DNA of 40,165 nt from Syntrophaceae bacterium (GTDB taxonomy: Bacteria > Desulfobacterota > Syntrophia > Syntrophales > UBA2185), in contig PMBI01000096.1 of NCBI GenBank assembly GCA_003153775.1, forward strand, positions 1 to 40,165, in the 5' to 3' direction. The position numbers and the translations under genes are program-made. This document shows, in pieces, positions 11,477 to 13,755 of the stretch. Within the stretch, counting starts at the first letter, position 1. Each line of letters begins with the position of its first letter. The notes under the pieces are model-generated. The model searched no databases and was not told the DNA's origin. It saw only the letters and a program-made list of their open reading frames with translations.

Positions 11477-11767
11477 TCATTCACAAATATCTTCGTATAA
11501 ATCATTCCATTCCGGATTGTCTCTTTCTACAAGGTTTAACTTCCAGCGCCTGTCCCACTTCTTTATCTGTTTCTCTCTGATGATTGCCTTCTCTGCCGTT
11601 GCGTGGGATTCATACCAGACCAGGCGATGGACAGCGTACTTTTTCGAGAAGCCATCCACCAGATTGTTCTTATGTTCGTAGATACGCTTTACAAGATCAG
11701 ATGTTACACCGGTATACATAGTGCCATTCCTCTTGCTACAGATTATGCAGACGTAATAGTTGTTCAT
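11477..11767 (-). CDS. GIY-YIG nuclease family protein bracketed by inverted repeats
   Basis: A 96-residue single-domain GIY-YIG protein of the UPF0213/YhbQ kind. The pattern is YYVCIICSKRNGTMYTGVTSD (residues 4-24), then R28 in DLVKRIYEHK, and the putative catalytic E65 in AIIREKQIKKW. The start is set at the ATG at 11767; an upstream extension would translate the palindromic repeat into VIPAQAGIP, a common annotation artefact. The ribosome site is weak. The gene sits between two oppositely oriented copies of the palindromic repeat (11450-11469 and 11781-11800), a placement that may reflect joint mobility. Its GC content appears lower than that of its neighbours. Function is unproven; such small proteins are often called endonucleases without assay. 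Confidence 0.82.
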   Translation of the reverse strand: MNNYYVCIICSKRNGTMYTGVTSDLVKRIYEHKNNLVDGFSKKYAVHRLVWYESHATAEKAIIREKQIKKWDRRWKLNLVERDNPEWNDLYEDICE

Positions 11768-11776
11768 ATCTGGAAC

Positions 11777-11804
11777 CGGGATTCCCGCCTGCGCGGGAAT
11801 GACG
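11777..11804. repeat. ATTCCC-N8-GGGAAT palindromic repeat, inverted copy
   Basis: A perfect copy: ATTCCC (11781-11786), GCCTGCGC, GGGAAT (11795-11800), followed by GAC. Read on the minus strand it begins GTCATTCCCGCGCAGG, so it is inverted relative to the copy at 11450. It lies 10-20 bases upstream of the GIY-YIG start. Confidence 0.85.
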
Positions 11805-11858
11805 AGGAAGAATAACTCCTGTCTCGGTGAGGATGACTGCAAGAGAGCCTGAATGTAA

Positions 11859-12599
11859 TCACCTGAGAGAACTGAGGATTGCATTCTTTGTCTTTGCCAT
11901 ATCGGCAGGTTTGACCTCCATAGTCATCGTTGACTCGTAGCCTTTCTCCGTGAGGAGCGTAAGTATCCGCCGGTACTCGACGATACCGTCTCCGAGAGGC
12001 AGATGGATGTCATCCTTTGGAGATTTTCCGCCCCGGTTGTCATGTACATGCACGTGCGCTATACGGGAGAAACAGTTCTCGATAAAACTGAAAGATGTGT
12101 TCTCCCTCGAGAGGAGTTGGGCGTGCCCCATGTCCAGGGTCATTCTCAAGTCGGGAACTTTATCAAACATGGGTGCGAAATGATAATATCGTTCACTCAG
12201 GTTCTCAATGCATAAGACTATGCCTGCGTTTCTCGCAGATGCGGCCATCTCGGACGCCAGCTCGATCTTGCGTGAGGCCGTTTCATGCGAGACATACCTT
12301 TCGTCCATCCAGAAATGAAATGTTCCCTTCGTGATGCCGAGCGCTCCCGACAGGTCGAAGAGTCTCTTCATGCGGGGAACGAATCGCTCCTCAAGAATCT
12401 TTGCATCAAAGGTGTTATCTTCGTTGGGATAGTGGGCAAGATAGGCGATACCGTAAATGGTCTTCAGTCTTAGAAGCTCGTCAAGATCACGCTCGACGTC
12501 TTCCGGGGCATAAAGCGAAATCTCGGCAAAAGGATATCCGAGTTTTCCGACTTCGTGAATCTCTTCTATCGAGTGGGCTCTCCCGCCGATGATGAACAT
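11859..12599 (-). CDS. Sugar phosphate isomerase/epimerase-like TIM barrel protein
   Basis: A 246-residue xylose-isomerase-like (AP endonuclease family 2) TIM barrel. Candidate divalent-metal ligands sit in the conserved strand-end positions: E132 (VLCIENLS), D156 and H159 (TLDMGHA), H186/D187 (HVHVHDN) and E228 (TMEVK). The start at 12599 has GGGGA 6 bases upstream. Relatives include hydroxypyruvate isomerase, inosose isomerases and endonuclease IV; the length and the HVHVHDN motif favour a sugar isomerase/epimerase role over DNA repair. It stands alone on the minus strand, with the GIY-YIG gene downstream. The substrate cannot be assigned. Confidence 0.82.
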   Translation of the reverse strand: MFIIGGRAHSIEEIHEVGKLGYPFAEISLYAPEDVERDLDELLRLKTIYGIAYLAHYPNEDNTFDAKILEERFVPRMKRLFDLSGALGITKGTFHFWMDERYVSHETASRKIELASEMAASARNAGIVLCIENLSERYYHFAPMFDKVPDLRMTLDMGHAQLLSRENTSFSFIENCFSRIAHVHVHDNRGGKSPKDDIHLPLGDGIVEYRRILTLLTEKGYESTMTMEVKPADMAKTKNAILSSLR

Positions 12600-12835
12600 C
12601 CTGTATCCCCTGACTTTTTCGTTTAGGATTTAGGTATAGACCGGTCTGACCTGCGTGGCAGGGTAAGGCTTGTCCCCCCCGTCCATTCATGGCCATATAT
12701 ATCAAACCTGATGAGAAAACGCATGTCAAATATTGTCGACGGCGACGGGCAAAGCGCCTCATTGGCCAGCATCAATTGTTTAAGCATAGAGTATTTGGAG
12801 GATTTCAGGGCGTACAGCTCATAGGATGAATTAGC

Positions 12836-12863
12836 TTGACTTCCCCCTGATTTAGAGTATCCT
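12836..12863 (+). promoter_or_regulatory. Sigma70-like promoter of a short terminated transcript
   Basis: TTGACT (12836-12841), a 16-base spacer and TATCCT (12858-12863). The expected start is near 12870. A strong intrinsic terminator follows about 75 bases later with no gene between. Confidence 0.6.
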
Positions 12864-12869
12864 AAATAT

Positions 12870-12980
12870 AAGACCATGTAATAGACATCACTGACAAAGT
12901 TGATGAGCTCTCGTCCCGCAAAAGGGAAACAACGGAACTATTGAAGCCCTGTCCATTACAATGAGACAGGGCTTTTTGTT
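12870..12980 (+). ncRNA. Putative small RNA or attenuating leader, about 110 nt
   Basis: The segment lies between a good promoter and a strong terminator and has no supportable reading frame. Possible inner stems are CATCA/TGATG (12885-12904 region) and CCC/GGG around 12915-12926. There are single-stranded A-rich and GGA stretches (GGGAAAC, CGGAAC). A short-lived resemblance to a hammerhead core (TTGATGAG...GAAAC) does not hold up, because the spacing and stem II do not fit. I do not recognise an Rfam class. It ends about 65 bases before a GTG-started gene, so it could be either an independent RNA or a leader that controls that gene by termination. Confidence 0.45.
12944..12978 (+). terminator. 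Intrinsic terminator
   Basis: A stem of AAGCCCTGTC (12944-12953) with GACAGGGCTT (12965-12974), extended into the loop by CATT/AATG, then a run of T to 12977. A canonical rho-independent terminator on the plus strand. Confidence 0.85.
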
Positions 12981-13046
12981 TCTTAGAATGGAAAAGAATC
13001 CGGGGCATTAAATGCAGATGATATTTATGGCGAGGAGGTTGCAAAA

Positions 13047-13355
13047 GTGAATATACACCTGATCGAACATTTAAATAATTTTGCCAAGCTGTCGGATAAT
13101 GTATGGGAAAGCGGCTGGTGGACGTTGGATGAAAATAAAGCTCAAAAGCTCGTCGGGGGCGAGATTTTTTTTCATAAGAAGAAGCAAGAGCCTTCCTTTT
13201 ACGGCGGGACTATACTGGGGTATAGAGTAGAGCCGGATGGCGAGTATCAGGGGAAGATTATTTTCAAGCTCCAGCATAAGAAATCATGCAGGGATGTCAG
13301 GACGGATAAATCCGGATGGTCCAAGGAAATGAAGATAATAGGAATGGAACAGTGA
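13047..13355 (+). CDS. Conserved hypothetical protein, 102 residues
   Basis: A small soluble protein. The GTG start at 13047 is supported by GAGGAGGT 7-8 bases upstream. There is no signal peptide or membrane segment. It is rich in aromatic residues and charge, with a central FYGGTILGYRVEPDGEYQGKI stretch and a C-terminal KSCRDVRTDKSGWS segment. I have a sense that this is a family of short proteins of unknown function but can give no role. It follows the putative small RNA/terminator unit and precedes another small unknown gene by 19 bases on the same strand, so the two probably share a message. Regulation by the upstream terminator is possible. Confidence 0.65.
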   Translation: MNIHLIEHLNNFAKLSDNVWESGWWTLDENKAQKLVGGEIFFHKKKQEPSFYGGTILGYRVEPDGEYQGKIIFKLQHKKSCRDVRTDKSGWSKEMKIIGMEQ

Positions 13356-13374
13356 TTGGAAAAGGATAAAGACC

Positions 13375-13755
13375 GTGACTGAAGACTTGATGGACTATTG
13401 GGTGAGGCTTATAAAGCCGATTTTCCCGACGAATGCCTGGATTGTTCCGCATTTCGCTGACAACGATCATATTATACAAATTGACTGGAACATCGACAAG
13501 AATACAAAGCAGTCAAACAAGCGCTCCAAGAAAATTGAGATAATAATCAAAGAGGACGCAATTGACCTGTATCTCGATAAGAACAAGCAGGATCGTGAAT
13601 TATACGGCGACGCACTAAAGCTGTTTATCAGCGAGCGGTATAACCATTTTAATCCTGATAACGATGCCCTCACGAACAGATCTGTACGCACAGAGAAATG
13701 GCTGATCTCCAAGGCCATCCTTAGTACATTGACCCCCTCACATAGCTTGATGTAG
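13375..13755 (+). CDS. Hypothetical protein, 126 residues
   Basis: A soluble, charged protein with no recognised domain. The GTG at 13375 has AAAGGA 9-14 bases upstream; the internal ATG at 13390 is an alternative start. The middle (residues 40-65) alternates Lys/Arg with Ile in a likely beta pattern (KKIEIIIKEDAIDLYLD). The C-terminal half is helical and carries ERYNHFNPDNDA. It follows the previous small gene by 19 bases and is probably cotranscribed with it. The two may act together, but nothing in either sequence states how. No export signal is visible. Confidence 0.6.
   Translation: MTEDLMDYWVRLIKPIFPTNAWIVPHFADNDHIIQIDWNIDKNTKQSNKRSKKIEIIIKEDAIDLYLDKNKQDRELYGDALKLFISERYNHFNPDNDALTNRSVRTEKWLISKAILSTLTPSHSLM

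Follow-up and report, generated by a model that had tools for sequence, protein, structure and literature searches.

A conserved promoter-leader-terminator cassette of the Syntrophales as a probable transcription attenuator

A 447-base intergenic gap in a Syntrophaceae bacterium (contig PMBI01000096.1; the whole stretch analysed, 40,165 nucleotides, is referred to below as the window) carries a promoter-RNA unit that is real and conserved. The best explanation, to which we give a probability of roughly 0.72, is that this unit is the 5′ leader of two small genes, ORF1 and ORF2, that it acts by transcription attenuation, and that the same cassette controls a small regulon. Terminator-type attenuator leaders are a known kind of element; the family described here (R2) is one without an Rfam 15 match in the scans made.

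The cassette in the window

The gap (12600-13046) lies between a gene ending at 12599 and the start of ORF1 at 13047. It holds, just as the preliminary description had it, a promoter with a 16-base spacer, some 110 bases of sequence and a strong terminator, followed on the same strand by two small genes without a family match. The features, all on the plus strand, are as follows.

12836-12841, plus: -35 element TTGACT, sigma-70-type
12858-12863, plus: -10 element TATCCT, separated from the -35 by a 16-base spacer
12835-12863, plus: conserved promoter CTTGACTT, comprising the -35, an AWTnrG spacer motif and the -10 TATCCT (pattern scan and alignment)
12870-12980, plus: leader RNA of ~110 nt with predicted ends (R2 match 12872-12982)
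12876-12888, plus: 5′ motif AUGUAAUAGACAU, proposed as the antiterminator strand; in-register complement of the terminator 5′ arm and loop
12914-12927, plus: middle hairpin UCCC-GCAAAA-GGGA (fold, covariation)
12943-12977, plus: intrinsic terminator hairpin and T-run (fold, covariation)
12950-12960, plus: UGUCCAUUACA, part of the terminator (5′ arm and loop) proposed to pair with 5′ motif positions 12877-12887
12983-13046, plus: gap from terminator to ORF1, poorly conserved (mean identity 0.31, 17 loci)
13047-13355, plus: ORF1, 102 amino acids, predicted fold weakly PUA/EVE/YTH-like
13375-13755, plus: ORF2, 126 amino acids, found after ORF1 in 14 of 41 ORF1 loci

The plus strand of the gap has no ORF of 50 amino acids or more; the minus strand has two, of 84 and 60 amino acids, neither with a Pfam match. 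The nearest upstream gene (11859-12599) encodes a xylose-isomerase-like TIM barrel protein. Because this gene is on the minus strand, the terminator is not its end, which disposes of the idea, raised in the preliminary description, that the hairpin might belong to a longer upstream gene. Also in the window, a GIY-YIG-type endonuclease-like frame was noted by eye at 11477-11884, beside which short repeats translate as 'PAQAGI' and 'RRRES'; we take these to be typical of dispersed palindromic repeats.

The RNA (12869-12985) folds at -36.3 kcal/mol (z -4.6). In the terminator, 12943-12956 pairs with 12961-12975 and TTTTT follows; the hairpin has a predicted energy of -20.4 kcal/mol (z -6.1), and none of 200 shuffles was equally stable. 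The pattern scan missed it, presumably on account of the scan's loop limit of 3-8 nt. In relatives the middle hairpin is often CUUCCC-AUAUA-GGGAAG. An AUG-UAA start-stop codon in the 5′ motif was considered and rejected, being lost in several of 20 relatives, and inspection of the R2 leader family by eye found no consistent uORF.

Conservation, distribution and covariation

BLAST searches with the 801-base region gave matches in 25 of 60 related genomes, and in G007, G031, G050 and G055 these skip the stretch between terminator and ORF1. In the loci returned from relatives, ORF1 is present in 20 of 20 and the cassette lies upstream of it in 20 of 20, with promoter, 5′ motif, middle hairpin region and terminator visible every time. 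Conservation is therefore not limited to the stem, as the preliminary description had allowed it might be: promoter and 5′ motif are conserved too in all 20 relatives. Computed on 17 of the 20 ORF1 loci, mean pairwise identity is highest in the terminator (0.76), followed by the 5′ motif and the start of ORF1 (0.68 each) and the promoter (0.61); it is lowest in the middle (0.41) and the gap (0.31).

A covariance model without the promoter (R1) matched 71 of the 155 sampled genomes of the order, which we take to be Syntrophales, at E ≤ 0.1; its source was 20 of the 41 ORF1 loci described below, so that the recovery of these is not independent. Fifty-nine R1 matches with E ≤ 1.2e-4, together with two weaker ones added for their likeness by eye (G118:C24 and G133:C64, later scored by R2 at E 1.3e-6 and 4.2e-6), make up the 61 loci used throughout; weaker R1 matches, among them G009:C72, G066:C106 and those to a sister family, were left out. 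Alignment A6 holds 59 of the 61 (all except L131 and L152), and the refined model R2 was built from 52 sequences. With R2, a covariance search of orthologous regions, the check that the preliminary description had proposed, finds the RNA in 58 of the 155 genomes at E ≤ 0.01, and some genomes have two or three copies. R2 scores 96.8 bits on the window (E 7.5e-14), whose copy is itself among the 52 sequences. In a phylum sample of 395 genomes, ~16 of them from the order, R2 was found in five genomes of the order; the two matches among ~379 genomes outside it (E 0.004 and 0.007) are at chance level and were set aside, in a search that scored only 9 candidates per genome and could miss weak members.

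The promoter is part of the conserved cassette, though it is absent from the RNA covariance model. Its -35 was located in 60 of the 61 loci, the remaining locus having no upstream sequence. When the loci are aligned on the -35 (the search imposed its TTGA and left the other promoter positions free), the preceding base is C in 55 of 60, T stands at position 6 in 55 and at position 7 in 47, in the spacer motif position 16 is T in 46 and position 19 is G in 52, and the -10 keeps its A in 47 and its T in 46. Sigma-70-like sites, defined as matches at no fewer than 9 of 12 positions, are found in 50% of 60 stretches upstream of the RNA, where shuffles yield them in 6.7%. Over the first 60 nt 3′ of the RNA, by contrast, they occur in 4.9% of 61 loci and in 4.9% of shuffles, a scan restricted to sites of this type and to those 60 nt, with longer gaps at some loci. 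Since there is no excess of promoters behind the RNA, the downstream genes probably rely on read-through by polymerase that has passed the terminator.

The hairpins themselves covary. Across the 59 aligned sequences the R2 structure is paired in 88.7% of cells (36-62% for slid structures), with both-side changes in 11 of 16 pairs and a covariation score of 0.292 against 0.196 in shuffles, figures from an alignment that was fitted to the structure and is to that extent biased toward it. The middle hairpin is paired in 81.0% of cells with both-side changes in 6 of 6 pairs, and the terminator in 93.4% with both-side changes in 5 of 10.

The second pairing, between the 5′ end and the terminator, would be the alternative to the terminator hairpin. 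In the window AUGUAAUAGACAU is complementary in register to UGUCCAUUACA. The 5′ motif and terminator loop are paired in 81.1% of cells, against 14-66% for slid versions, the upper figure being reached by a slide of +3. Both sides change in 16 cells, and 1 of 500 shuffles has as many, although pair counts and shuffles overstate significance among related sequences such as these. The extended pairing with the terminator is present in 80.3% of cells. Further analyses of the pairing began with 62 rows (the 61 loci less G129:C64, plus G009:C72 and G066:C106). In one of them some terminator anchors were misplaced (cluster permutation p 0.024). In another, with three rows placed by hand and three re-placed, the Watson-Crick fraction over 51 distinct combinations is 0.61 against 0.56 when the partners are re-paired, and none of 2000 re-pairings was as high. 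The complementarity is plainest in the window (UGUAAU/AUUACA), in G011 and G030 (AAAUAA/UUAUUU) and in G050 (UUUCAAG/CUUGAAA). Of 59 transcripts cut before the terminator 3′ arm, 53 show more pairing between the 5′ end and the 5′ arm and loop than the control does, with 8.55 expected pairs on average where a shuffled 5′ end gives 3.61; six of the 59 do not beat the control, which itself averages at least 4 pairs in 26 of 59.

Other results speak against this helix. In 8 of the 51 combinations the terminator arm reads GCC and the 5′ motif still GAC, an A-C mismatch, and no compensating GGC was found in the 5′ motif among the 51 where the arm is GCC. Nor does mutual information peak clearly along the paired diagonal, its value there being 0.017 and two positions away 0.029. 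In the first 20 sequences the extended antiterminator pairing had no clear covariation, 56 of 500 shuffles reaching its score. Covariation of this pairing is thus moderate in the loop and extended versions above and weak in these last two analyses.

Searches for known families gave little. Rfam (release 15) returned nothing at gathering threshold for the whole 40-kb window, and so the check suggested in the preliminary description leaves the RNA unmatched. In 12580-13400 the sole match at E ≤ 5 is isrJ (RF01393), rejected because its 16.8 bits (E 2.4) fall far short of the gathering score, 37, its likeness to the window RNA lying mainly in the terminator. On 12 leader loci there was nothing at threshold on the RNA, the one hit being a tRNA elsewhere; at L121 the best match by E, anti-hemB, was rejected at 19.9 bits against a threshold of 49.5. 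The cspA thermoregulator, likewise a leader RNA of cold-shock genes, is an Rfam family that acts on translation and occurs in enterobacteria; it was not matched in the scans of the window or of the cold-shock-linked loci L121 and L123. Among the open-access titles listed, none names the leader element.

Downstream genes and a sister family

A recognisable same-strand gene follows the leader in 59 of the 61 loci: ORF1 in 41, and another gene in 18 of the 20 loci without ORF1. The leader RNA thus recurs away from ORF1, before unrelated genes and with the same promoter. Within 1.5 kb, 10 of the 20 non-ORF1 loci have a same-strand cold-shock-domain gene, making cold-shock genes the commonest assigned downstream genes apart from ORF1. 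Three of these ten follow directly, five come after a small membrane-type protein and two after a TPR protein; G000:C94, a second copy from the same genome as the window, is one of the two with TPR. Three further loci lead into a protein of 70-81 amino acids and one into a small membrane-type protein alone. KaiB directly follows the leader in one locus (G134:C81; L122:3055-3333, Pfam E 8.6e-27), and a KaiC-like frame was seen by eye behind it. Three more loci precede PAS-type proteins, one confirmed by Pfam and two by eye, and two loci have no assignable downstream gene.

ORF1 itself is found in 45 of the 155 genomes of the order. Neither it nor ORF2 has a match in Pfam, PHROG or NCBIfam. The structure model of ORF1 (pLDDT 87.7) has its best structural match in 9u7u (Z 7.9, rmsd 2.5, 90 aligned). 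YTH entries, and entries that we take to be EVE proteins, match at Z 5.4-6.4 with other entries interspersed. The predicted fold of ORF1 thus weakly resembles PUA/EVE/YTH-like folds, at values of Z below 8, which can mean only a common arrangement. For ORF2 (pLDDT 81.7; best match 2mpe, Z 7.3, rmsd 3.9, 108 aligned) comparison of the predicted model gave no clear relative. ORF1 profile matches in one genus include five with an in-frame TGA; selenocysteine was considered and rejected on reading two of the five (G111:C85 and G110:C76), where the frame ends after the conserved C-terminal KKIV and the TGA looks like a normal stop.

Weak R1 matches revealed a second leader type, R3, which has AUGGACUGAUUAUUGAAACCCCGUUUC before the terminator. 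At E ≤ 0.001 it is present in 87 of the 155 genomes of the order; the window's genome has 14 copies and one relative as many as 22. In the phylum sample R3 matched 21 of 395 genomes, of which four belong to the order. It resembles R2 in its middle hairpin plus UUAUUGAAACCCCG terminator and in the TTGACTT-type promoter of several copies; it differs in its conserved AUGGACUGAUUAUUGAAACC block, its greater number of copies per genome and its occurrence outside the order. Rfam scans of 10 and 12 R3 loci found nothing at the elements, the one hit (L203) being a group II intron elsewhere.

The R3 loci viewed include L155, L154, L136, L151, L156, L153, L146, L147 and L145, and the copies in the window's own genome include G000:C60:20580-20675, C56:19869-19958 and 12 more. 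Frames seen by eye after R3 are formamidase-like, PAS, WD40-like, DnaJ-like and lipoprotein-like. R3 leaders can be grouped in twos or threes on a contig within ~1 to 10 kb, as in G001:C191 (L197), G000:C56 (L188) and G036:C57 (L198). Many copies (L187-L204) have an AUG preceded by GAGGG or AAGGG just before the terminator, which by eye opens either the two-codon frame AUG GAC UGA or a short peptide, MKRLLKPRF; translation-coupled attenuation is a possible role for such short frames.

R3 matches at least two R2 members (G005:C181 and G005:C111), and R2 and R3 may for that reason be one superfamily. We would suggest, tentatively, a single promoter-attenuator superfamily with up to ~20 members per genome answering one global signal, which might be a second messenger, cold or the state of an RNA chaperone, in a lineage-wide stress and signalling regulon that would include cold-shock, KaiB/KaiC-type and PAS genes.

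Attenuation and the competing explanations

Under the attenuation model, RNA polymerase would start at ~12870 from the conserved promoter, and the first ~18 nt of the RNA could pair with the terminator's loop and ascending arm. After synthesis of the descending arm, the stronger terminator hairpin would displace the 5′ pairing and transcription would stop at ~12980, giving an RNA of ~110 nt. A signal acting on the leader would stabilise the 5′ pairing or weaken the hairpin, and polymerase would then read into the genes. The same cassette would control cold-shock-domain, KaiB, PAS, TPR and unknown small proteins in the order, and the terminated RNA could additionally act in trans. The complementarity, stems, promoter and conservation that this scheme draws upon are computational observations. 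The leader is probably OFF by default, with termination as the resting state and antitermination as the presumed response. As the terminator is predicted to be much stronger than the 5′ duplex (-20.4 against -10.2 kcal/mol), a factor would be needed.

What that factor might be is suggested by precedent. In E. coli, CspA, CspC and CspE are reported to act as antiterminators at intrinsic terminators (Bae 2000, Phadtare 2002, both cited in PMC4347634), and PMC4347634 also describes TRAP and Bgl/Sac as protein-controlled attenuators. The E. coli Csp system and the present one both have an intrinsic terminator before genes, and here cold-shock-domain genes lie behind the window-type leader; the system described here differs in that the leader is conserved and dedicated and has a promoter and a proposed antiterminator strand of its own, the link to Csp being one of analogy. 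With terminator-type riboswitches, TRAP and Bgl/Sac the leader shares a 5′ position, a terminator and a predicted alternative pairing expected to be mutually exclusive with it, whereas here one leader is common to unrelated downstream genes. Given the E. coli precedent, and since cold-shock genes are the commonest assigned targets, our first guess, a tentative one, is that the signal may be temperature itself or a factor that binds RNA, for example a cold-shock protein. The case for a cold-shock trigger is one of gene neighbourhood only, and autoregulation would be allowed.

The main alternative to a Csp or temperature trigger is a metabolite. The 5′ motif and middle hairpin would then be the aptamer of a small-molecule riboswitch, in which a metabolite or second messenger would choose between antiterminator and terminator; this falls under the attenuator reading, with a different signal, and we consider it doubtful. 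A terminator that competes with another pairing is a riboswitch-like arrangement and would suit it, as would the AUAUA loop of the middle hairpin in many members, the occurrence of one RNA before unrelated genes (PAS proteins included) and the sister family with up to 22 copies per genome. Few unpaired bases are invariant beyond the terminator and 5′ motif, however, the downstream genes have no obvious metabolite in common, and Rfam riboswitches stayed below threshold in the window, the 12 leader loci and the 10 and 12 R3 loci. The preliminary description had left the choice between an independent small RNA and a leader gating the two genes, and it is the leader that is well supported, by promoter placement, by the same-strand gene at 59 of 61 loci and by the antiterminator-like pairing. 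Promoter, ~110-nt RNA and terminator do form a complete unit, the conserved 5′ end could serve as a seed, and some genomes carry two or three copies, all of which would fit a trans-acting RNA whose downstream genes are mere neighbours or read by leakage. Yet in 18 of the 20 non-ORF1 loci a recognisable gene or gene pair follows on the same strand, the order promoter-RNA-terminator-ORF1 is kept in the ORF1 loci, and the promoter signal is absent from the stretch after the RNA; an independent small RNA is accordingly unlikely, and less likely than an attenuation leader.

Two further explanations carry almost no weight. In CsrA-sequestering small RNAs several GGA sites are conserved, most of them located in hairpin loops. 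The GGA stretches of the window RNA, put forward in the preliminary description as possible CsrA-type targets, are present but not conserved: ANGGA is missing from 25 of the 61 RNAs and occurs once in 23 and twice in 13, while one window GGA sits in the 3′ arm of the middle hairpin, not in a hairpin loop. A CsrA-titrating function is hence highly improbable. Equally hard to credit is a functionless chance juxtaposition of promoter-like and terminator-like sequence. Promoter-like matches are cheap here (12 sites in 2.5 kb, where shuffling predicts 3.4), but chance is contradicted by covariation, by the recurrence of the cassette with different genes and by its conservation in the order.

The attenuation leader would represent an orphan leader-RNA class in bacteria known here mostly from metagenome bins, and the family comes with a defined set of downstream genes and with alignments for finding its signal. 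Should the trigger be a cold-shock protein, the leader would be an RNA element devoted to Csp antitermination; a metabolite trigger would make it a new riboswitch candidate. ORF1 and ORF2 become testable members of a regulon.
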